NCBI RefSeq assembly: GCF_041429795.1
Contig: NZ_CP163424.1
Location: 1,304,001-1,368,000, forward strand
From: Algimonas porphyrae
Lineage (GTDB): Bacteria; Pseudomonadota; Alphaproteobacteria; Caulobacterales; Maricaulaceae
Reading direction: 5' to 3'
DNA: 64,000 nt
Shown: positions 32,307 through 43,041 of the stretch, in pieces
How positions within the stretch are numbered: position 1 is the first letter of the stretch
Layout: each line of letters starts with the position of its first letter
Notes under the pieces: model-generated
What the model was told of the DNA's origin: nothing
The model's database searches: none
Seen by the model: the letters and a program-made list of their open reading frames with translations, nothing else
Made by a program: the position numbers and the translations under genes

Positions 32307-32359
32307 CCTCGCTATCGTGCTGCCGCTTTATGGTCGTCGGCAGAGATGAAGGAGGATAT

Positions 32360-32701
32360 ATGTCTCGCCGTAAATCGACCAACCCCAATGATCCGGCCCG
32401 CGCTCGCCTCGCTCTGGCCGCCGCAGCAATCGAATTCGGCGTCCCCGATCTCGACATCACCCGTCCGCACCAGCGCGCACCCCTGACCGATTATGCGCGG
32501 CAGGTGGCCATGTACCTCAGTGCCTGCAGTTTCGGCATGACGATGACCCGTATCGGGGAGTTGTTCGGACGAGACCGGACGACTGTCAGCCATGCTATTC
32601 GCGTGATCGAGGATGGGCGGACGGACCCTGTGCTCGATGCCAAGCTCGAGCGACTGGAACGCTGGCTCGTCCGCGCGCCCCGTATGGCGGACGCACAATG
32701 A
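32360..32701 (+). CDS. Small regulator with DnaA domain IV-like helix-turn-helix (GafY-like)
   Basis: Protein of 113 residues from the ATG at 32360, which follows a very strong ribosome site (AAGGAGGATAT). Residues about 55-100 (YARQVAMYLSACSFGMTMTRIGELFGRDRTTVSHAIRVIE) match the DNA-binding domain IV of DnaA, including the GRDRTTVSHA core, but no AAA+ domain is present, so it is not DnaA. In Rhodobacter the GTA activator GafA begins with such a domain; in Caulobacter the function is split in two proteins, GafY and GafZ. The 4-base overlap with the next gene and the position just before GTA g1 support this as the GafY counterpart. Confidence 0.68.
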   Translation: MSRRKSTNPNDPARARLALAAAAIEFGVPDLDITRPHQRAPLTDYARQVAMYLSACSFGMTMTRIGELFGRDRTTVSHAIRVIEDGRTDPVLDAKLERLERWLVRAPRMADAQ

Positions 32702-33513
32702 AGAGCCCGCGCAGCGCCCGCCTCCATGACGAGCAATTGTTACGCAGCCTTCTGGCGAGCGACGGCCTGATCCGCCGTGAGCCGCTGAGCGAGGATTGGC
32801 CGGCCTATGTGAGGGGCGATAAACGCAAACGTCCGCTCTTCTGGGTCAATTGCGCCGATATAGACCGGCTGATCGCCGATGGGGCGCTGATTGCAACGGA
32901 ACGCGGCATTGGCCCGTCTGGGCCTACACGTCGGCGCCTGCAATATGGGTCATCCGCCTTCGAGATGGAGGAGCGCGTCGAATACATCCCCTCGGGCGTG
33001 GAGAGACCTGTGCGTCGCAATGTACGCGGCTCCGTGATCGAAAGGCTGGCCCGCCGTCAGGACGCGCAGGATCGACCGATCCTGACAGCGGCTCAGATCA
33101 CAGCGGCGCAGCGCTATACGCATTCTCTGCTTGCTGCGGGGGAAGGGCGCGTCGGCTCAAGCGCACAGACCCAGCCCAAAGTCGATGGAGCGTGGCGTCA
33201 CGATTCCGCGGAGAGGGCTGCGCTGGCACGTATCGACGCCGGCAAGAGCTTGCAGGCGGCGCGCATGGCGGTCGGCGATGACATGGCGCGGTTACTCAAC
33301 GCCATCTGCGGGGCGAATGAACGGCTAGAGGCGATTGAACGGGCAGAGCGCTGGGCGCGCGGCACGGGCCTGATCGTGCTCCGCATGGCGCTGGATATTC
33401 TCAGCCGGCATTACGGCACCGTTGTGGGCGAGGGGCCGCGCCCCCTGTCCATTGACCCCCAATCCCCCTGCGCCGAAAGACCTGTCCACCCCTTGGATGC
33501 GGATGCAGCCTGA
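32698..33513 (+). CDS. DUF6456-type helical regulator (GafZ-like)
   Basis: Protein of 271 residues. The N-terminal third is a winged-helix-like region (LLRSLLASDGLIRREPLS, later VNCADIDRLIADGALIATERG). The C-terminal half (AERAALARIDAGKSLQAARMAVGDDMARLLNAICGANERLEAIERAERWARGTGLIVLRMALDILSRHYG) is the DUF6456-like helical domain that ends GafA/GafZ-type GTA activators. It overlaps the GafY-like gene by ATGA. In Caulobacter the GafY/GafZ pair turns on GTA transcription and lets polymerase read through terminators. The assignment is by domain pattern and location; I could not compare sequences directly. Confidence 0.62.
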   Translation: MKSPRSARLHDEQLLRSLLASDGLIRREPLSEDWPAYVRGDKRKRPLFWVNCADIDRLIADGALIATERGIGPSGPTRRRLQYGSSAFEMEERVEYIPSGVERPVRRNVRGSVIERLARRQDAQDRPILTAAQITAAQRYTHSLLAAGEGRVGSSAQTQPKVDGAWRHDSAERAALARIDAGKSLQAARMAVGDDMARLLNAICGANERLEAIERAERWARGTGLIVLRMALDILSRHYGTVVGEGPRPLSIDPQSPCAERPVHPLDADAA

Positions 33514-33551: not shown

Positions 33552-33872
33552 ATGACCCGCTCAGACACTGAAACCTGTTCCGATCCCAAACATGCGCAGC
33601 CTGTAACGGCGAATGATCTGATCCGCGCTTTGCAGGCCCGCCTCTTAGCCTTGGGCGATACGCAGGACGCCTTGTCGGTGAGTGAAATCGAACGGACGGC
33701 CAAGGCTATCACCCAGATGATCAACAGTCTCGAACGGGCCGAGGGGTTTTTGCGCGACAGGACAGGCGTCCCCCAGCCAGGAGATCGGCTGGAAGGCGAC
33801 GCCAGACAGGCATTCCTGCGAAAACTTAAACGCCTTGTTGCGACCGGTATTCTGGACGAACTTGATGACTGA
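33552..33872 (+). CDS. GTA g1, terminase small subunit-like
   Basis: Protein of 106 residues, the expected size of RcGTA g1, which was recognised as a TerS-type protein. The sequence is helical, with VTANDLIRALQARLLALGDTQDALSVSEIERTAKAITQMINSLERAEGFL, and an acidic C-terminus (VATGILDELDD). It overlaps the large terminase gene by 8 bases. TerS would bind the large terminase to start headful packaging of host DNA. Confidence 0.7.
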   Translation: MTRSDTETCSDPKHAQPVTANDLIRALQARLLALGDTQDALSVSEIERTAKAITQMINSLERAEGFLRDRTGVPQPGDRLEGDARQAFLRKLKRLVATGILDELDD

Positions 33873-35136
33873 CATATCGGACCTGCAACTAAGCGCATGG
33901 TTCAGCGATAGTGAGACCGCTTCGATCAATTGTGATTGGGGCGCGTTTGCGCGGTGCGATCAGAGAGCGCCTGACAACCCCGACTGGTCCGTCTGGCTCC
34001 TGCTGGGCGGTCGCGGTTCGGGCAAGACGCGGGCCGGTGCGGAATGGGTTCTGGAACAGGTCCGGCAGGGGGCACGACGTATCGCGCTGATCGGGCCGAC
34101 ATTGCACGATGCGCGCGAAGTCATGCTAGGCGGCGATAGCGGCCTTCTGAATGTCGGTTTTCGCAATGAACGGCCCCATTATGAGCCGACACGTCGGCGG
34201 CTGGTCTTTCCCAGTGGCGCGATCGCCTATCTGTTTTCAGCACATGAGCCGGACAGTCTGCGCGGTCCGCAATTCGACGCGGCCTGGGGCGATGAATTCT
34301 GTGCCTGGCGGGATCCGGATGCCGTGCTGTCCAATCTGCGTCTCGGCCTGCGACTAGGGTCAAGCCCGCGTCTGACTCTGACCACCACACCGCGTCCCAT
34401 GCCTGCACTGGACCGACTGATCCATGCGCCCGGCACCTGCGTAACCCGGTCCCGAACCCGCGACAATGCGGACAATCTTGCGCCGGGTTTCATTGCGGCG
34501 ATGACCGATCTTTATGGCGGAACGGCGCTAGGTCGGCAGGAACTGGACGGGGTCATTGTTCGCGATCATCCCGGTGCGATTTTTCAGCGTGGCGATATCG
34601 ACAAGGCGCGGGTGAAGAATGCGCCGCCGCTGGGTCATATTCTAATCTGTGTCGACCCGCCGGCCACGTCTGGTCCCAAGTCGGACCGCTGCGGTATTAT
34701 CGTCGTAGGACGGGCGCGCCGGGACGGCACGGCTCACGCCTATATCCTGCAAGACGCGACCGTGTCGCGCGCCCGCCCCGAAACCTGGGCCCGGCGGGTT
34801 GTCGATCTGTTTCACGCTCATGCGGCGGATGCCATTCTGGTCGAGTCCAATCAGGGCGGAGAGATGATCGAAACGGTCATCGCCCAGGTCGATGCCGATG
34901 TGCCTGTACAGCGCCGCCACGCGGCCCGCTCAAAGGCGCGTCGGGCGACGCCCGTCGGGTTGATGTATGCACGCAGTCGCGTCCACCATGTGGGCAGACT
35001 GGATGATCTGGAGGACGAGCTGTGTGCGTTCGGCTCGGACGGCGCAAAAGGCAGTCCTGACCGGATGGACGCGCTGGTCTGGGGAGTCTCGGAATTGCTG
35101 CTTCAGACGCAAACCCCACGGCTTCATTTTCTTTAA
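33865..35136 (+). CDS. GTA g2, terminase large subunit
   Basis: Protein of 423 residues from the ATG at 33865. Walker A is LLLGGRGSGKTRAGAEWV, Walker B lies in FDAAWGDEFCAW, and the C-terminal RNase H-like nuclease has ILICVDPPATSG, VESNQGGEMIETVI and a late Asp in GSPDRMDALVWGVSELL. It is the ATP-driven motor that packages DNA into GTA heads. Length and motifs look complete, with no frameshift. Confidence 0.92.
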   Translation: MTDISDLQLSAWFSDSETASINCDWGAFARCDQRAPDNPDWSVWLLLGGRGSGKTRAGAEWVLEQVRQGARRIALIGPTLHDAREVMLGGDSGLLNVGFRNERPHYEPTRRRLVFPSGAIAYLFSAHEPDSLRGPQFDAAWGDEFCAWRDPDAVLSNLRLGLRLGSSPRLTLTTTPRPMPALDRLIHAPGTCVTRSRTRDNADNLAPGFIAAMTDLYGGTALGRQELDGVIVRDHPGAIFQRGDIDKARVKNAPPLGHILICVDPPATSGPKSDRCGIIVVGRARRDGTAHAYILQDATVSRARPETWARRVVDLFHAHAADAILVESNQGGEMIETVIAQVDADVPVQRRHAARSKARRATPVGLMYARSRVHHVGRLDDLEDELCAFGSDGAKGSPDRMDALVWGVSELLLQTQTPRLHFL

Positions 35137-35198
35137 CCGCGCATTTACCCTGTTGGCGTCATAGTTCATGCAATCCAGGAGGGGTGCCGTCTTGCGGG

Positions 35199-35660
35199 AT
35201 GGTCAAAGGTGCGACTATGTCAAAAACCGTGAAATCGAAGCGGCGTCAGACAGCGGACTTGCAAATCAGATTGCGACAGACCGATCGGGAACTCGGTCAG
35301 CTCAACTGGGAGCTGGCGCAGGAACTGGTCACGCTTGCCGATCAGGCCAATAATCCCGAACCCCTGATCGAAGCCGTCGAAGCGCTTCGGTCCGCCAAAC
35401 GCTACTATTCTTTCGAAGACGCGCCACGCGAACATGCGCTGATTCAGCAATCCATTGCGGATACGCTTCTGATTCTGGGCCGCCGCACAGGGGACCGGGA
35501 AGCGCTGCAAACCGCACGCGACGCTTATCGCGGTGCCATTACGCTGGCCTCGCTTCTGTCCGATGAGGCTCTTCGCGACGCTTTGCGGATCAATTACCGC
35601 GAGACTCAGACCTTGCTGGGTGAGACGCTGCAGAGCGCGGCCCTGTTCCGGGTCGCCTGA
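35199..35660 (+). CDS. TPR-like helical protein inserted between GTA g2 and g3
   Basis: About 153 residues; starts at 35199 or 35217 are both possible. The sequence is two or three TPR-like helical pairs (ELAQELVTLADQANNPEPLIEAVEALRSAKRYYSFEDAPREHALIQQSIADTLLILGRRTGDREAL). It is not part of the standard RcGTA gene order (g2 is followed by g3). It might be a lineage-specific GTA accessory factor or an unrelated insertion. A strong AGGAGGGG lies about 15 bases before 35199. Confidence 0.6.
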   Translation: MVKGATMSKTVKSKRRQTADLQIRLRQTDRELGQLNWELAQELVTLADQANNPEPLIEAVEALRSAKRYYSFEDAPREHALIQQSIADTLLILGRRTGDREALQTARDAYRGAITLASLLSDEALRDALRINYRETQTLLGETLQSAALFRVA

Positions 35661-35671
35661 TCCGGCAATCA

Positions 35672-35689
35672 ATCCGCGCGAACGCGGAT
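35672..35689. other. Short hairpin between the TPR gene and the portal gene
   Basis: ATCCGCG-CGAA-CGCGGAT: a perfect 7-base stem with a CGAA loop, 11 bases after the TPR gene stop. The following bases (GGAAAATTCTT) are not a clear T-run, so terminator function is weak. It may be an RNA processing site in the GTA transcript. Confidence 0.35.
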
Positions 35690-35798
35690 GGAAAATTCTT
35701 GTCTTTCAGGCCGCTGAAAGAAAATCAGCCGAATAAATCCCCGCTATTCCGAATGGGGTCATAAAAGACCTATCGCTGCTCAAAGGGTTTGGGCACCG

Positions 35799-36956
35799 AT
35801 GGGAACCACCATCATGAAATTGCCTTTCACGGGCCGCACGCTCAGTCCGCGCGTTGCGCCTGCTCCTGCCTTGCTGGCCGATGAAACCAAATCCGGTGAC
35901 GCGCCGCTGGTCGCCGTCGAACTGTCGCGCCGCGCCTGTTTCACCAGCCCTGATTTCGTCTCCCTCTGCCGCGAAGGATTTGCGCGCAATCCTGTCGTCT
36001 ATCGCTGTGTGCGCATGATTGCGGAAGCGTGCGCGTCTGTACCGCTACTCGGCGACGGCCTGCCGGATGAGGCCGCCGAAGTGCTGGAGCGCTTCTACGG
36101 CTATCTCCAGGTTTCAGGCAGCGCCTATCTGCAGGGTGTCTGGCTGGACGGGGACCTCGTCGGATTGCGCGCGCTGCGTCCCGACAGGGTCAGCGCCCTG
36201 ACGGATGCGGCTGGACGTCCCGCAGGATTTGGGATCCGCACCGACAAGGCCCGCAGCGTCCATCGTCGCGATCCGTTGAGCGGTCAGTGCGAGATCATGG
36301 CGCTGACCCTGTTCGATCCGCTATCCGACGTGGATGGACAGTCGCCCTTGCGCGCCGCGGCGACGAGTATCGATCTGCACAATCAAGGCACGCGTTGGGC
36401 CAAGGCCCTGCTCGACAATAGCGCGCGCCCATCCGGTGCGCTCGTCTATAAGGGCGGATCGGGCGACAGGCTGTCGCGTGATCAGATCGACCAGCTCAAA
36501 GCCGAACTGGAACAGGGCTTTACCGGCCCGGCTCGCGCTGGCCGTCCGATGGTGCTGGAAGGCGGGCTCGACTGGAAGACGATGGGACTCAGCCCCTCCG
36601 ACATGGATTTTACTCAGGGTCGTCGCGAAGCCGCTCGCGACATTGCGCTCGCATTCGGCGTCCCGCCCATGCTGCTCGGCATTCCGGGCGACAATACTTA
36701 CGCGAATTATGCCGAGGCGAACCGTGCTTTCTGGCGCCAGACCGTCATTCCTCTTGTCGGGCGTACGGCGCGCTCTCTCAGCCGCTGGCTGACGGCAGCA
36801 GGGCAAGACGTTTCGCTGAACCCGGATCTGGATGCAGTCCCGGCCCTGGCGGCGGAGCGGACGGCGCTATGGGCGCGGATCGATGCGGCGAGCTTCCTCG
36901 ACATCGATGAGCAGCGTGATCTGGCAGGCTTGGGACCGCGCGGGGACGGCGCATGA
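35799..36956 (+). CDS. GTA g3, HK97-type portal protein
   Basis: Protein of 385 residues (380 if started at 35814). FARNPVVYRCVRMIAEACASVPLL, then SAYLQGVWLDGDLVGLRALRPDRV, then GRREAARDIALAFGVPPMLLGIPGDNTYANYAEANRAFWRQTVIPL, are classical for the HK97 portal family. The dodecameric portal forms the DNA channel at the head vertex. Its end overlaps the next gene (ATGA). Confidence 0.92.
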   Translation: MGTTIMKLPFTGRTLSPRVAPAPALLADETKSGDAPLVAVELSRRACFTSPDFVSLCREGFARNPVVYRCVRMIAEACASVPLLGDGLPDEAAEVLERFYGYLQVSGSAYLQGVWLDGDLVGLRALRPDRVSALTDAAGRPAGFGIRTDKARSVHRRDPLSGQCEIMALTLFDPLSDVDGQSPLRAAATSIDLHNQGTRWAKALLDNSARPSGALVYKGGSGDRLSRDQIDQLKAELEQGFTGPARAGRPMVLEGGLDWKTMGLSPSDMDFTQGRREAARDIALAFGVPPMLLGIPGDNTYANYAEANRAFWRQTVIPLVGRTARSLSRWLTAAGQDVSLNPDLDAVPALAAERTALWARIDAASFLDIDEQRDLAGLGPRGDGA

Positions 36957-37216
36957 CCATGACGGTAATGGGACCGGTCCGGCTTGAACGGACAATCACG
37001 TTCGGTCTGATCATGACACTGATCCTGCAGACGGCCGGAGGGCTCATCTGGGTCGGGGCTGCCGAAGCGCGTCTGACCGAACTGGAACATGAATTTGAAA
37101 GCCAGCTCGCCATCAGTGAACGGCTGGCACGGCTCGAGGGGGAAACCGCGATCATGCGCAGCAGCGTGCTTCGGATCGAACAGACTCTCGTTCGGACCAA
37201 AGGCGACAGGCCATGA
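36953..37216 (+). CDS. GTA g3.5-like small membrane protein
   Basis: Protein of 87 residues: one hydrophobic helix (ITFGLIMTLILQTAGGLIWVGAA) followed by a coiled-coil-like stretch (RLTELEHEFESQLAISERLARLEGETAIMRSSVLRIEQTL). Size and place between portal and protease genes match RcGTA g3.5, whose role is not settled. It overlaps both neighbours by ATGA. Confidence 0.7.
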   Translation: MTMTVMGPVRLERTITFGLIMTLILQTAGGLIWVGAAEARLTELEHEFESQLAISERLARLEGETAIMRSSVLRIEQTLVRTKGDRP

Positions 37217-37641
37217 CCGCCGGCCTGAAGATTTCCGGCTATGCGTCGCGCTTCGACGAGCGTGACGCTGGCGGTGACAGGGTGCGGCGCGGGGCCTTCG
37301 CCGCTTCGCTACTCAGCCGCTCCACATCCCTGCCCATGCTGTCCGACCACCAACGTCAGATCGGCGTCTGGGACCGTGTGACGGAAGACGGCACCGGACT
37401 GTTCGTGGAGGGCCGCGTGACGGATCCGGCGCTGACGCGACTGATTACAGCCGGAAAGGTCAACGGCCTGTCGATCGGCTATCGCACCCGCCGCGCTACG
37501 CCGCGCGAGGGTGGGCGCGACCTGCTCGACCTGGACTTGCGCGAAATATCCGTCGTCGCCTTTCCGATGCTGGGCTCCGCCCGGATCGACACAGTTTCTG
37601 AACCCGTAACCGAACGCACCAACCACAGGAGACTTGCGTGA
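37213..37641 (+). CDS. GTA g4, HK97-type prohead protease
   Basis: Protein of 142 residues. ISGYASRFDERDAGGDRVRRGAF opens the fold; the catalytic His lies in PMLSDHQRQIGVW and the Ser in KVNGLSIGYRTR. It cleaves the delta domain of the capsid protein during head maturation. It ends in a GTGA overlap with the capsid gene, as usual for the HK97 module. Confidence 0.9.
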   Translation: MTAGLKISGYASRFDERDAGGDRVRRGAFAASLLSRSTSLPMLSDHQRQIGVWDRVTEDGTGLFVEGRVTDPALTRLITAGKVNGLSIGYRTRRATPREGGRDLLDLDLREISVVAFPMLGSARIDTVSEPVTERTNHRRLA

Positions 37642-38789
37642 CTACCCCAATTCTGGAGACCAAAATGGCGAGCGATGATTTCGCCGCAACCTTTGCGGCC
37701 TTTCGCGAGGCCAATGACGAACGTCTGACCGAAATCGAGAAAAAGGCCGCTGCCGATCCCTTGCTCGACGCGAAAGTCGACCGGCTGAACAAGCGACTGG
37801 AGACCTTGTCGCTCAGCCTGTCGCAACCCGCATTGAGCCAGCCCGTCGACGAAGCCAAGTCCGCTTGGGACCGGTTCATTCGCACGGGTGATGAAACGGC
37901 GCTGATCGAAGCCAAATCCCTCTCGTCCAGCGATGGCAGTGGGGGGTTCATCACCCCGATCGAAACGGAAAACCGCATCGACAGTGTTCTTGAAGCCGCC
38001 TCGCCATTCCGGCGCATCGCCACGGTTCGCAAGATCGGGGCGGGACGGTTTCGCAAGCCTGTCGGGACTGGCGATGCCACATCCGGCTGGGCCGGGGAGT
38101 CAGACGCCCGGCCTCAAACGACGGCGCCGTCCCTGACGCTGATGGATTTTCCTGTCGGCGAGCTTTACGCCATGCCGGCCGCGACGCAGGCGTTGCTGGA
38201 CGATAGCGTGGCCGATGTTGATGCCTGGCTCGCCGAAGAGGTCCGCGATGTGTTCGCCGCGCAGGAAACTGCCGCATTCGTCAACGGAAACGGGCAGAAT
38301 AAACCCAAGGGTCTGCTATCCTATCAAGACGGTGCGGATGCGCTGGCGGTCGTGAAAACGGGCGTGAACGGCAGTTTTGCGGTGGGATCGCAGATCGATG
38401 CACTGATGTCCCTGATTTACACGCCCAAGTCCAAATTTCGTCCCGGTGCGTCCTTCATGATGAACCGCAGGACGCTTTCGGAAATCCGCAAGCTGAAGGA
38501 TGCAGACGGCAACTATATCTGGACGCCGCCCAGCACGATCGGCGAACCGAGCCAATTGCTGGGTTATGCCGTGACAGAGGCTGAGGACATGCCGGATATC
38601 ATCGATAACGGTCCGGCCGTCGCATTCGGTGACTTCCGCCGCGGCTATCTGATTGTGGACCGTCAGGGCATCCAGGTGCTGCGCGACCCCTATTCCGCAA
38701 AGCCCTATGTGTTGTTCTACACGACCAAGCGTGTCGGCGGCGGCGTGCAGGACAAGAACGCCTTCGCTCTGCTGGAATTTGCCGAATAA
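37638..38789 (+). CDS. GTA g5, HK97-type major capsid protein
   Basis: Protein of 383 residues with a GTG start inside the protease stop. Residues 1-100 are the helical delta domain (MASDDFAATFAAFREANDERLTEIEKKA) removed by the protease. The HK97 core follows: SSSDGSGGFITPIETENRI, ATQALLDDSVADVDAWLAEEV, FVNGNGQNKPKGLL, and FGDFRRGYLIVDRQGIQVLRDPY. It looks intact. A terminator-like hairpin follows 110 bases after the stop. Confidence 0.95.
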   Translation: MTTPILETKMASDDFAATFAAFREANDERLTEIEKKAAADPLLDAKVDRLNKRLETLSLSLSQPALSQPVDEAKSAWDRFIRTGDETALIEAKSLSSSDGSGGFITPIETENRIDSVLEAASPFRRIATVRKIGAGRFRKPVGTGDATSGWAGESDARPQTTAPSLTLMDFPVGELYAMPAATQALLDDSVADVDAWLAEEVRDVFAAQETAAFVNGNGQNKPKGLLSYQDGADALAVVKTGVNGSFAVGSQIDALMSLIYTPKSKFRPGASFMMNRRTLSEIRKLKDADGNYIWTPPSTIGEPSQLLGYAVTEAEDMPDIIDNGPAVAFGDFRRGYLIVDRQGIQVLRDPYSAKPYVLFYTTKRVGGGVQDKNAFALLEFAE

Positions 38790-38899
38790 CCCTCTCTGAC
38801 GCGGTGATCGCCGCAGTCAGTCGCAGGGCCAGCCTTTTCACAAGGAACTCTGCGAAACATGCTTGCGATCGGACCCGTGACCGGTCGCCGCCACTTCAT

Positions 38900-38925
38900 A
38901 CCCGCCTTCACGGCGGGTTTTTCTT
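38900..38925 (+). terminator. Intrinsic terminator inside the GTA cluster, after the capsid gene
   Basis: ACCCGCC-TTCAC-GGCGGGT: a 7-base GC-rich stem followed by TTTTTCTTT. It lies between the major capsid gene and g6, 111 bases after the capsid stop and 25 before the g6 ATG. It would stop most transcription of the downstream connector and tail genes unless read-through is enforced. Confidence 0.8.
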
Positions 38926-38949
38926 TGCCATTCTGGAGGGACCCCATTC

Positions 38950-39450
38950 ATGCTGATCGATCTGGATGACCCGCCGGTCGAGCCGATTACGCTCGCCGAA
39001 ACGAAAACCTTTCTCCGCGTCGATCACGACGATGATGACGGCTTGATCGCAACGCTGATCGCGTCGGCGCGGCAGACGCTGGAAAACCATTTGAATGTCG
39101 CCATGATCCGGCGATCCATGCAGCTCTCGAGCCCGGCGACCGACGAGTTCCGCTTGCCGCGCTGGCCTGTCACCAGCGTCGAGACCGTTCTGGTCGATGG
39201 CGAACAGGCCACGGATTATATTGTCAATCTGCGTAAACGCCCTGCGACAGTCTGCGCAAGTGCCATGGATCATGTCGAGATCGCCTTTACGGCGGGTTAC
39301 GGCACGGAACCATCCGACATTCCGGCCCCCTTGCGACAGGCGCTCTTATTGCTGGTCGCCCAAGCTTACGAACATCGGGACGCCACACCGTCCACCTTGC
39401 CGCTGATGGTCGATGCGCTGACCATGCCTTACCGGGTGGTCGGACTGTGA
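38950..39450 (+). CDS. GTA g6, head-tail connector protein
   Basis: Protein of 166 residues. PPVEPITLAETKTFLRVDHDDDDGLIATLIASARQTLENHLNVAMIRRSMQ is the gp6-like connector signature, with the usual C-terminal helix (PAPLRQALLLLVAQAYEHRD). It forms the adaptor ring under the portal. Ribosome site TGGAGGGAC. The stop overlaps the g7 GTG. Confidence 0.9.
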   Translation: MLIDLDDPPVEPITLAETKTFLRVDHDDDDGLIATLIASARQTLENHLNVAMIRRSMQLSSPATDEFRLPRWPVTSVETVLVDGEQATDYIVNLRKRPATVCASAMDHVEIAFTAGYGTEPSDIPAPLRQALLLLVAQAYEHRDATPSTLPLMVDALTMPYRVVGL

Positions 39451-39764
39451 TCGGCCAGTTGCGCCACCGCATCGGGATCTACGCGCCGAGCCGGATCGCC
39501 GATGATCTGGGCGGGACCGTCACGAATTGGACGTTTCAGCGCGCCGTCTGGGCCGCTGTCGAACCGCGATCCCTGTCCGAAACACAGACGAACGGCCGTC
39601 TCAGCGTCACGCAGACCTTTCGGGTGACGCTCCGCTTTCGCAGCGACTTCCCCCGTCTGGCTCGCCTTGTCTGGCGCGGTCGGACGCTGCGCGTGGTCGC
39701 GGTCAGCGACCCCGATACGCGGCGTGAACGTCTGCATCTAATTTGTGAGGAGGAACGCCAATGA
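39447..39764 (+). CDS. GTA g7, head-tail adaptor (stopper)
   Basis: Protein of 105 residues with a GTG start. IGQLRHRIGIYAPSRIADDLGGTVTNWTFQRAVWAAVEPRS is the SPP1 gp16-like head closure family; TLRFRSDFPRLARLVWRGRTLRV follows. It closes the head after packaging. It is coupled to g6 and g8 by 4-base overlaps. Confidence 0.88.
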   Translation: MIGQLRHRIGIYAPSRIADDLGGTVTNWTFQRAVWAAVEPRSLSETQTNGRLSVTQTFRVTLRFRSDFPRLARLVWRGRTLRVVAVSDPDTRRERLHLICEEERQ

Positions 39765-40186
39765 GCAGCGTCAATCTGGCTGAGGCCGCACTGGCCGTGC
39801 AGCATGACATCCATACGGCGCTGGGTTTGGATCTGACTCTCCAGACGGTGCTGGGTGATCCGATCCGGGCGTATGATCATCGTCCCACGGACCCAGCCTA
39901 TCCCTATCTGACTTACGGCAGCATCCGGTCAGAGGATTCCAGCGGCGATGCCGCCCCGCAATCGACCCATCAGATCACTCTGCACCTCTGGAGCCGGTAT
40001 GAAGGTCGATCCGAAGTGCTCGACCTGCTGCGGCGCGTATCCGACACCATTTGCGACGCCCTCCCACAGGCGGTCGTGCCGCTTTATCTGGACGTGCTGC
40101 GCGCCCCGGATGGACGGACCTTCCACGGCCTGCTGCGACTGTCCGTGACAACCACCGAACCTTCTCAAGAGGAGACCACGCCATGA
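39761..40186 (+). CDS. GTA g8, tail terminator-like protein (DUF3168)
   Basis: Protein of 141 residues. LAVQHDIHTALGLDLTL, PIRAYDHRPTDPAYPYLTYG, HQITLHLWSRYEGRSEVLDLLRRVSDTICDAL and DGRTFHGLLRLSVTTTE are the DUF3168 pattern; in RcGTA g8 sits at the top of the tail tube. Overlaps g7 and g9 by ATGA. Confidence 0.9.
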   Translation: MSSVNLAEAALAVQHDIHTALGLDLTLQTVLGDPIRAYDHRPTDPAYPYLTYGSIRSEDSSGDAAPQSTHQITLHLWSRYEGRSEVLDLLRRVSDTICDALPQAVVPLYLDVLRAPDGRTFHGLLRLSVTTTEPSQEETTP

Positions 40187-40587
40187 GCGTAGCAAGAGGA
40201 CGCGACCTTCTGTTGAAGGTCGAAGATGAAGGCAGTTTCATGACGGTTGCAGGGTTGCGAACCAAGTCGATCCGGCTCAATGCGCAGACGGTCGACGTAA
40301 CGGACATGCAGTCGAATGGCTGGACGGAATTGCTACCGGAAGCGGGCATTCGGTCCATTGCCATAACGGGCTCCGGCGTTTTCAGAGACGCGCAATCGGA
40401 TGCCCTGATCCGCAGCGCCTTTTTCGCCCAGACCGTGCTCAACGCGCAGATGATCCTGCCAGGTTTCGGCACGATCACATCCCCTATTCTTGTGTCGGGA
40501 CTGACCTATGGGGGCACGTTCAAGGGCGAAGCAACGTTCGAACTGACCTTGGTCAGTGCCGGAGAACCGGTCTTCATGCCGTCATGA
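40183..40587 (+). CDS. GTA g9, major tail (tube) protein
   Basis: Protein of 134 residues from the ATG overlapping the g8 stop. GRDLLLKVEDEGSFMTVAGLRTKSIRLNAQTVDVTDMQSNGWTELLPEAG is the tail tube signature of TP901-1/RcGTA type, ending in TYGGTFKGEATFELTLVSAGEPVF. It would polymerise into the short tail tube. Complete. Confidence 0.92.
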   Translation: MSVARGRDLLLKVEDEGSFMTVAGLRTKSIRLNAQTVDVTDMQSNGWTELLPEAGIRSIAITGSGVFRDAQSDALIRSAFFAQTVLNAQMILPGFGTITSPILVSGLTYGGTFKGEATFELTLVSAGEPVFMPS

Positions 40588-40856
40588 ATTATCGCGCAGG
40601 AGATGTCATGACCGAGATCGGGCCGCTGCGCCTGACGGTCGGTGGCCTAGCCGAACTGGCCGCGCGATGTGACGCCAAAACGCCAGCGGCTCTGGCTGAC
40701 ATGATCCGGACCTTGTGTCCGGACACGGCGCGCCACCTGCTAACCGCCTTGCTACGACCCTCCGGCAATGAAGCGGAGGTGGCGCGCCTGACCGATCAAC
40801 AGGTGGCAGATCATATGCCGGCGGCATCACAGTGCATCGTCACGGCGCTTTCATGA
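40584..40856 (+). CDS. GTA g10-like tail assembly protein
   Basis: Protein of 90 residues; overlaps g9 by ATGA. The core IGPLRLTVGGLAELAARCDAKTPAALADMIRTLCPDTARHLLTALL resembles the small GTA family protein encoded after the tail tube gene (gp10). Such proteins act as tail assembly chaperones together with the next gene. Confidence 0.75.
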   Translation: MNYRAGDVMTEIGPLRLTVGGLAELAARCDAKTPAALADMIRTLCPDTARHLLTALLRPSGNEAEVARLTDQQVADHMPAASQCIVTALS

Positions 40857-41044
40857 CCTGGCCATTCGATGAGTGGCACCGGCTTGCCGTGCGCCATCTG
40901 CAGCTCTCGCCGAGCGAGTTCTGGGCCATGCCGCTGGCGGACTGGCTGTCACTGATCGCGATCGACCGCTCCGCGCTGGATCGGTCAGACCTCAATAAAT
41001 TGATGAAGGACCACCCCGATGGAATAGATCGGCAAGGCGGCTGA
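40853..41044 (+). CDS. GTA g10.1, tail assembly chaperone-like (DUF2376)
   Basis: Protein of 63 residues; overlaps g10 by ATGA. WPFDEWHRLAVRHLQLSPSEFWAMPLADWLSLI is the usual pattern of this short family, and LNKLMKDHPDG is close to its normal end. The last residues (IDRQGG) and the stop at 41042-41044 are followed in the same frame by a remnant of g15, so the 3' end was probably altered by the deletion described for that remnant. Confidence 0.75.
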   Translation: MTWPFDEWHRLAVRHLQLSPSEFWAMPLADWLSLIAIDRSALDRSDLNKLMKDHPDGIDRQGG

Positions 41045-42046
41045 CGCCGTCGCGGCGCTGGATACGGATCAGCGCTTCTGGATCGCTTTGCCTTCGATGG
41101 GCATCTGTGGACGGTCGATACGCTTGAAATCGGATCGCAGATCGACCTGACGGCGCGGCGGGCCTATTCGGCGGATCGGACCTGGCTTGCGGGAGCCACG
41201 CCCGGAACTGCGCAACCCATTGCATGGTCCGGGCCGGCGCAGCTCTTCGCTTTCGATCTACCAGACCGGTCTGGCATCAGTGTCGGCGCCATGCTCAACC
41301 CGTTCGAACCGGTCACGATCGCGGGTCCAGAGGGCGAACAGACACTGACCAGACCCTTGCGACTCGGAGCGACACTCAGTGCGTTTCCGGCGCGTTCGGC
41401 ACTGATTGTTGATGAACAGACGTCGCTGACGATATTCATGCCGAACCTGGCAGTCAGTTCCGTCTCCGATGATGACGTCCTGCACTCGGCCAATCGCTTT
41501 GCCATCGAGACACCGCTGGGATGGGAAATCATCGCAGCACGGGATGTGACCTTGGTCGGCGCGCACGAATATGCGCTCTCGCATTTGCTGCGGGGGCTGG
41601 ACGGGACGGACATTTATCAGGCAGACCCGCTGGCCTCTGGAGCTCGTATCCTCTGGCTTGGATCCGGCGTGGAGACGCTTGCGCTCTCCGCCGATTGGAG
41701 AGGGACATCGGTGACCGTGACAGGCATGACCCAGAGTCGGGCCGCGCAGGCGACGGATCTGATCTGGCAGGACCTTGCCGGTGTGCCGCTTCATCCTGTC
41801 CATGCGACATGGGATTCCCAGCGACTGAGCTGGATTGGTCGCGACCGCGCATTCACCGGATGGGAAAGCGATGCCGATCATCTTCGTTACCGGGTCCGGC
41901 TGTACCGCGGTGAAACGATCGAAACGGTCGACACGACCCAGACTTTCATCGAAACGAGCGAATTCGACAGGGCTGAGATCGTCCAGCTCGGACCGGATGG
42001 CCGGGAAAGTCTTATGCCGGAGACGTTGAATGTAGGCGGCGCGTGA
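41045..42046 (+). pseudogene. Remnant of GTA g15 (host-specificity/tail tip protein), C-terminal part only
   Basis: From the g10.1 stop the same frame stays open for 333 codons to the TGA at 42044-42046. It reads as the end of RcGTA-type gp15: a fibronectin-like part (FAFDGHLWTVDTLEIGSQIDLTARRAYSADRTWLAG) and then the late gp15 motif ETPLGWEIIAARDVTLVGAHEYALSHLLRGLDGTD. Full-length gp15 has well over 1000 residues. There is no start codon before the ATG at 41291, and no ribosome site there. g11, g12, g13, g14 and the N-terminal three quarters of g15 are absent. The frame itself carries no stop, so the deletion may be recent or the fragment may be kept. Confidence 0.75.
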
Positions 42047-42060
42047 CTAAATAGTCGCCT

Positions 42061-43041
42061 ATGGCGGCGAAGAATCCATATGACCTGCTTGGTGTAGCGA
42101 AAACGGCGACGGATAAGGAAATCCGGTCAGCATATCGCAAACTCGCCAAGAAACTGCACCCGGACGTCAATCCGGACGATGCGGCATCGGCTGAGCGCTT
42201 CAAGGAAGTGACGGCGGCGTATAATCTATTGTCGAACGAAGAGTTGCGCAAACAGTATGATAGCGGCGCTATCGACGAACAGGGACAGCAACGCAATCCG
42301 TTCGCCGGTGCAGGCGGTTTCGGACAGCGTGGTCAAGGTCCCGGCTATAATACGGGTTTTGGCGGGTTCGAAGGGTTCGGTGCCAGAGGTGGGTCAGGCG
42401 GCGGCAGAATGGGTCAGGATGATATGTCCGACCTGTTCGGGTCACTATTCGGTATGAATACGGGGCCGTTCTCCGGTGGCATGCGAGGCGGTATGAACCG
42501 GCCACCTGTGCGCCGGAAGGGTGCAGACATTCAATACACAGTCAATCTGTCCTTGCCTGAGTCTCTGAGAGGCGGATTACGGCAGCTTCCATCCGGCACG
42601 AAAGTCCGCATTCCCGCCGGTATTCGGGACGGGCAGAGCCTGCGCGTCCGCGGGAAAGGCGAACCAGGAACGGGCGGCGGACCGGCCGGTGACGCCAAGG
42701 TCAGGATCAGTGTCCGACCGCATCCCAATCTTGCGCGAGACGGCGATGACCTTCATCTCCGCCTGCCGATCAGTCTGGGCGAGGCTTTGCGCGGCGGTTC
42801 GGTCCGGATCGACATGCCTAGCGGTGCGGTCAGTCTGAAAATTAAACCGGGCTCCAATACCGGGCAGAAGATGCGCCTGAAAGGGAAGGGCGCGACGGGA
42901 AAGAACAAGGTGCGCGGGAATCTGATTGTCGAACTGGTCATCATGTTGACAGAGGCTGAACTGGCGCAGGCAGACGATACCAAGCAACAGATAGGCGATG
43001 AAAATGGTGCTGTATTGCGTCAGGGATTGATCGGAAACTAA
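42061..43041 (+). CDS. DnaJ/CbpA-type co-chaperone without zinc finger
   Basis: Protein of 326 residues. J domain at residues about 4-70 (NPYDLLGVAKTATDKEIRSAYRKLAKKLHPDVNPDD, with the HPD motif that stimulates DnaK). A Gly/Phe-rich linker (GAGGFGQRGQGPGYNTGFGG) and two beta-barrel substrate domains (KVRIPAGIRDGQSLRVRGKGEPG; GEALRGGSVRIDMPSGAVSLKIKPGSNTGQKMRLKGKG) follow. The Cys-rich zinc module of DnaJ is absent, so it belongs to the CbpA/class II group. It starts 14 bases after the GTA remnant and may share the transcript. Confidence 0.88.
   Translation: MAAKNPYDLLGVAKTATDKEIRSAYRKLAKKLHPDVNPDDAASAERFKEVTAAYNLLSNEELRKQYDSGAIDEQGQQRNPFAGAGGFGQRGQGPGYNTGFGGFEGFGARGGSGGGRMGQDDMSDLFGSLFGMNTGPFSGGMRGGMNRPPVRRKGADIQYTVNLSLPESLRGGLRQLPSGTKVRIPAGIRDGQSLRVRGKGEPGTGGGPAGDAKVRISVRPHPNLARDGDDLHLRLPISLGEALRGGSVRIDMPSGAVSLKIKPGSNTGQKMRLKGKGATGKNKVRGNLIVELVIMLTEAELAQADDTKQQIGDENGAVLRQGLIGN

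Follow-up and report, generated by a model that had tools for sequence, protein, structure and literature searches.

A GTA cluster of Algimonas porphyrae with open head genes and a deletion from g11 into g15, probably in recent decay

In the genome of Algimonas porphyrae, a GTA cluster runs from g1 to g10.1 and then passes directly into the end of g15, raising the question of whether a head and packaging unit is being kept by selection or whether a formerly complete cluster has been broken. The locus lies in a window of 64,000 nucleotides (the whole stretch of DNA analysed, to which the positions below refer) within a closed genome of 3,169,281 bases on a single contig (99.88 % complete). This genome (G000) was compared with those of relatives (other G numbers; their loci carry L numbers), the sample comprising 137 genomes of the family Robiginitomaculaceae (order Maricaulales), among them G007 with a complete set of g1–g15. 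The locus begins at 32330 and has the order gafY-like, gafZ-like, g1, g2, gX, g3, g3.5, g4–g9, g10 and g10.1, followed by the deletion junction and the downstream operon:

32330..32701, + strand: gafY-like activator gene, DnaA-type helix-turn-helix (PF08299, 1.4e-12)
32698..33513, + strand: gafZ-like gene, DUF6456, C-terminal part of GafA (PF20057, 1.6e-19)
33552..33872, + strand: g1, small terminase candidate (35 % identity to G007 g1, E 1e-11)
33835..35136, + strand: g2, large terminase (PF03237/PF17289; 68 % to G007)
35184..35660, + strand: gX, family-specific, between g2 and g3, conserved in relatives (no match in Pfam or PHROG)
35799..36956, + strand: g3, portal (PF04860, 3.5e-65)
36953..37216, + strand: g3.5 (50 % to G007)
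37213..37641, + strand: g4, prohead protease (PF04586, 1.3e-19)
37638..38789, + strand: g5, major capsid (PF05065, 2.9e-81)
38950..39450, + strand: g6, head-tail connector (TIGR02215, 3.3e-29)
39447..39764, + strand: g7, head closure (PF05521, 3.9e-23)
39761..40186, + strand: g8, tail completion (PF11367, 1.8e-19)
40183..40587, + strand: g9, tail tube (PF06199, 2.2e-33)
40584..40856, + strand: g10 (PF11836, 0.0007, below cut-off; 52 % to G007)
40853..41044, + strand: g10.1, 63 aa, 57 in G007 (TIGR02216, 1e-4, below cut-off; 63 % to G007)
41020..41066, + strand: 5' remnant of g11 (tape measure), stop at codon 3 (by-eye alignment with the g11 starts of G007 and G012)
41067..41080, + strand: g11/g15 deletion junction, ~4.6 kb gone relative to G007 (g11 homology stops, g15 residue 853 starts)
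41045..42046, + strand: stop-free frame with the gp15 C-terminal remnant (homology from 41081; no start before 41291)
42061..43041, + strand: dnaJ-like gene, first of the conserved downstream operon (PF00226, PF01556; spacing)

As the original prediction had stated, g1 to g10.1 (33552-41044) are complete and in canonical order, every frame being open. The conserved head order with HK97-type capsid, portal, protease and terminase is a hallmark of RcGTA-type clusters and is common to G000 and the systems of Rhodobacter capsulatus (RcGTA) and Caulobacter crescentus (CcGTA); in contrast to both, G000 lacks g11-g14 and about three quarters of g15, and its gafYZ genes are located directly upstream of g1. 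The activator is of the GafA/GafYZ type as in Caulobacter (PF08299 and PF20057 matches at 32330-33513), GafY and GafZ being the counterparts of the N- and C-terminal parts of GafA (PMC11150451). The flanks are shared with relatives (nuo genes, mucR-like and gafYZ on one side; dnaJ, PepSY, regulator and kinase on the other), as for a vertically inherited cluster at a fixed chromosomal site. Since the tail hallmark (g11-g14 and full-length g15) is absent, the locus is a remnant of a GTA cluster rather than a complete one. The remaining genes encode head, neck and tail tube, and the lost parts are the tape measure, distal tail, hub, peptidase and most of the baseplate protein. Thus, the description as a tail-less head applies to g11-g14 and most of g15, but not to g9 (tail tube) and g10, which are still there. 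The GafZ proteins (32698-33513 in G000) of G000 and G017 are 61 % identical and both only 37-40 % identical to that of G007, a genus outlier with 27-40 % to all others, in contrast to the nuo genes, which are 82-88 % alike.

The stop codon of g10.1 (TGA, 41042-41044) is followed in the same frame by 333 stop-free codons up to the TGA ending at 42046, and no ATG, GTG or TTG occurs in this frame before 41291, all as originally predicted. The frame (41045-42046) corresponds to the C-terminal portion of gp15, the GTA baseplate protein (Pfam Rcc01698_C, 3.5e-23); it covers positions 1035-1249 of 1299 of the NCBIfam GTA_megatron profile and matches, from 41081 up to the 42046 stop, residues 853-1165 of the 1168-residue gp15 of G007. 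The deletion had been placed directly after the g10.1 stop; the frame does continue from there, but a 5' piece of g11 survives, starting with the ATG at 41020 inside g10.1 and traceable over ~16 codons (M E (stop) I G K A A D A V A A L D T D, compared with M D R D Q N Q A A D A L D A F D A D at the g11 start of G007), and the junction therefore lies at about 41067-41080. Apart from this piece, g11-g14 and most of g15 are indeed missing, amounting to ~4.6 kb as computed from the gene coordinates of G007. The gene actually cut is g11, relative to which g15 is out of frame. Since, in addition, a stop intervenes and no start precedes 41291, the frame match between g10.1 and g15 is a one-in-three coincidence carrying no information, and an in-frame g10.1-g15 fusion as a protein that is made was rejected.

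The original prediction had considered that the tail genes might reside at another locus. A tblastn search with the joined g11-g14 proteins of G007 yielded no match in G000 at E<=0.1, the same query finding matches in G012, G004 and G016. The profiles for g12 (TIGR02217) and g13 (TIGR02218) likewise had no match in G000, and the sole match of the megatron profile was the gp15 remnant itself. GTA-type tail genes at another locus of this closed genome are thus refuted. A weak PF13550 match at C1:330672 belongs to a GPD-type baseplate hub. The surrounding region (C1:298000-332000; L276, L274) appears to be a complete Mu-like prophage with a contractile tail, as judged by inspection of the sizes and order of the open reading frames, the hub being the only protein scanned. 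As this was the only other tail locus seen, supply of a tail from elsewhere was rejected. Scanning a collection of genome contigs with the gp15 remnant gave no match, and a scan of IMG/VR with g5 gave no relative above 65 % identity.

In a tree of four core genes, G000 forms a clade with G006 and G017 (support 98) beside G007 and G012, the latter containing g3-g15 on a contig that ends in gX. Both sister species in this clade are also broken. In G006, gp15 residues 24-1168 remain, interrupted by one internal stop; this remnant opens a contig, and g5 and g11-g14 were not found in this genome. G017 (NZ_CANMJB01, Algimonas sp. 4-908) is broken at the same site as G000 and likewise keeps the g15 3' end, with the g15 breakpoints about 33 codons apart. 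Unlike in G000, however, the deletion starts in g5 and removes the greater part of the capsid gene, fusing its first ~125 codons in frame to the gp15 C-terminus. This fusion frame (L034:16705-17955) comprises 416 aa from the g5 start codon, ~125 aa from g5 and ~290 aa from gp15, and g1-g4 upstream of it are open. A single ancestral deletion common to G000 and G017 is not favoured, since the core tree pairs G000, with a support of only 77, with G006, in which nearly all of g15 (residues 24-1168) is still there; contrary to this, a second tree (fewer genes, FastTree) groups G006 with G017.

Across the 137 genomes, g12 is present in 98, a g5 match in 101 and the gp15 C-terminal domain in 115. With the low-completeness genomes G127, G140 and G158 set aside, G000 has the only demonstrated head-without-tail cluster, and conservation of this arrangement was seen in no second species; three further genomes (G118, G078, G126) have g5 without g12, but there the contig ends inside the cluster. 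At least eight relatives carry deletions or rearrangements next to the same dnaJ site, their breakpoints differing from that of G000 (G017, G028, G083, G021, G031, G105, G141, G025), and the collapsed clusters of G021, G031, G105, G141, G083, G028, G025, G029 and G079 were dissected. A tree built from the flanking genes intersperses collapsed loci with intact congeners, indicating repeated and independent losses. Two of seven dissected junctions are in frame (G017, G122), those of G021, G031, G105, G141 and G083 being out of frame. Selection for in-frame junctions was rejected accordingly, and the predominance of out-of-frame junctions is the pattern that random deletions would give. In genus g19, five genomes (G035, G084, G085, G087, G089) contain no upstream GTA gene and yet keep the dnaJ-PepSY-response regulator-kinase operon, and near-total loss has left gX alone in G136 and g2 alone in G123. 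Total loss is therefore an end point, and in the long term the dnaJ operon can do without the g15 remnant.

The dN/dS comparison originally proposed for close relatives was carried out with a branch codon model (MG94-type, own script) and gave low values on the G000 branch, 0.111 in the head genes (background 0.072) and 0.102 in the flanks (background 0.056), the relatives compared being distant. No clear extra relaxation of the head genes relative to the flanks was observed. With G017 included, omega of g2-g4 was 0.14 in G000 and 0.18 in G017 versus 0.08, and that of the flanks 0.077 and 0.104 versus about 0.065; mild relaxation in both broken lineages is thus possible. All omega values are rough, since the lineages are distant and saturated (tip branches with 1 to 3 or more neutral changes per codon), and those of the G000 branch pool the time before and after tail loss. 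More telling is that the 6705 bases of the head genes contain neither a stop nor a frameshift. Neutral evolution should introduce 1.7-7 disruptions for each 1 % of divergence, the range reflecting different assumed indel rates; hence, either less than about 0.4-1.8 % neutral divergence has accumulated since the break or selection persists. Intact head frames and low dN/dS (0.11 versus 0.10 in the flanks) also fit continued selection.

Under continued selection, a head and packaging unit without tail would be kept, e.g., for DNA storage or protection or as a non-injecting particle released by lysis. The open genes up to g10.1, the open gafYZ regulators and the low dN/dS on the G000 branch agree with such a unit, as do Caulobacter GTA particles without visible tail in electron micrographs, in which case tail genes are present (PMC9632790). 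It is nevertheless very unlikely: no second head-only cluster was shown in 137 genomes (the clusters of G118, G078 and G126 being cut off by contig ends), sister G017 lacks most of the capsid gene, g2-g4 may be mildly relaxed on the G000 branch (0.14 versus 0.08, compared to 0.077 versus 0.066 in the flanks), and the break is possibly too young for open frames to reflect selection. The selected-for head of the original prediction hence finds no support in the family, and its specific version, in which head, neck and tail-tube genes under gafYZ control are expressed and selected as a never-delivering DNA packager forming an intracellular or lysis-released protected store, seems scarcely probable.

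An independent function of the gp15 C-terminal part, or a role in dnaJ transcription, might have preserved this part after GTA loss. Its domain is more widespread than g12, several collapsed clusters have long open g15 3' ends, and the g15 stop precedes dnaJ by 14-16 bases in the G000 clade (14 bases in G000, counted from the stop at 42046), requiring that dnaJ transcription originates within or above g15. However, the dnaJ operon persists without any g15 in seven genomes (G035, G084, G085, G087, G089, G136, G123), the remnants start at many different residues, mostly out of frame with the upstream genes, and dN/dS of the G000 remnant is raised, though imprecisely so (0.17 versus 0.06, 2dlnL 3.7); this explanation is rather unlikely. 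That the 4.6 kb are present in the cell and were collapsed or lost in the assembly is extremely improbable given a closed and near-complete genome on one contig with no extra gene copy and no unplaced contig, a junction explicable without a repeat, similar deletions in relatives and a stop of its own in g11.

Very probably, an RcGTA-type cluster was inactivated by a single deletion of ~4.6 kb from g11 to g15, i.e., by ordinary and recent breakdown. Gene content, the junction, the lack of any other copy of the lost GTA genes in this genome and the repeated collapse of the locus in relatives were observed directly. The broken clusters of G006 and G017 and the g11 nonsense codon also point to decay. 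A GTA-producing ancestor would have lost g11 to the 5' part of g15 in one event, and the lineage would now be a non-producer, probably making no infectious or transducing particles; any head still expressed would package DNA without delivering it. The deletion is presumably recent, and head genes and regulators may be intact only since decay has not yet arrived. The gp15 end may have survived because deletions into the adjoining dnaJ operon are not kept and little time has elapsed. Pseudogenisation and complete loss of GTAs have been stated for several alphaproteobacterial lineages, the pseudogenised clusters being read as recently arisen non-producer lineages (PMC10883770); by analogy, the incomplete G000 cluster would fit this reading. 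Different from those clusters, G000 contains one clean deletion with every gene before the cut open. The alternative of a recently broken locus in the original prediction is thus favoured by the independent and differing deletions in relatives, the lack of disruptions so far and the known GTA loss in the class.

The type of event is already known; the G000 cluster, intact to g10.1 and cleanly cut after it, adds a neat new case. Taken singly, the locus is an ordinary broken GTA; together with the relatives it becomes a usable data set on GTA loss, since G000, G006 and G017 are broken, apparently recently, beside intact sisters, and other lineages represent every stage to complete loss. This pattern fits the proposal that non-producers arise often and seldom persist. 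Most interesting, and speaking against plain decay, is that three sister species next to intact ones have each lost parts of the cluster, apparently not long ago, which is unexpected if losses were spread evenly along branches.

Further observations concern cluster structure in other family members. The g2 breakpoints of four genera almost coincide, lying immediately behind the codons of the Walker B motif (..PQF[DE]xAW[CA]D), at L150 ~11592 (G021), L152 ~12086 (G031), L153 ~3401 (G105) and L163 ~4152 (G019). In both G021 and G031, the truncated g2 continues into g15 at residue 523. A site-specific break was set aside, since short similar codon stretches in g2 (AW-D-E) and g15 (LW-D) may account for the joins in G021 and G031 by ordinary slippage. 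In G025 (L154:6400-12500), inversion and deletion have rearranged the cluster, such that g3 and the g15 end now enclose an opposite-strand block of g13, g14 and the beginning of g15; the cluster of its close relative G096 is intact. In three otherwise complete clusters, gp15 occupies two separate frames, divided near residue 830-900 (L041 ~5980, G004; L156 ~13450, G081; L157 ~15700, G080), which may represent frameshifts, assembly errors or two proteins. The gX gene (~150 aa) is kept in much of the family, and where it is the sole remaining cluster gene (G136, L268:9834-10187) it is located 85 bases before dnaJ.
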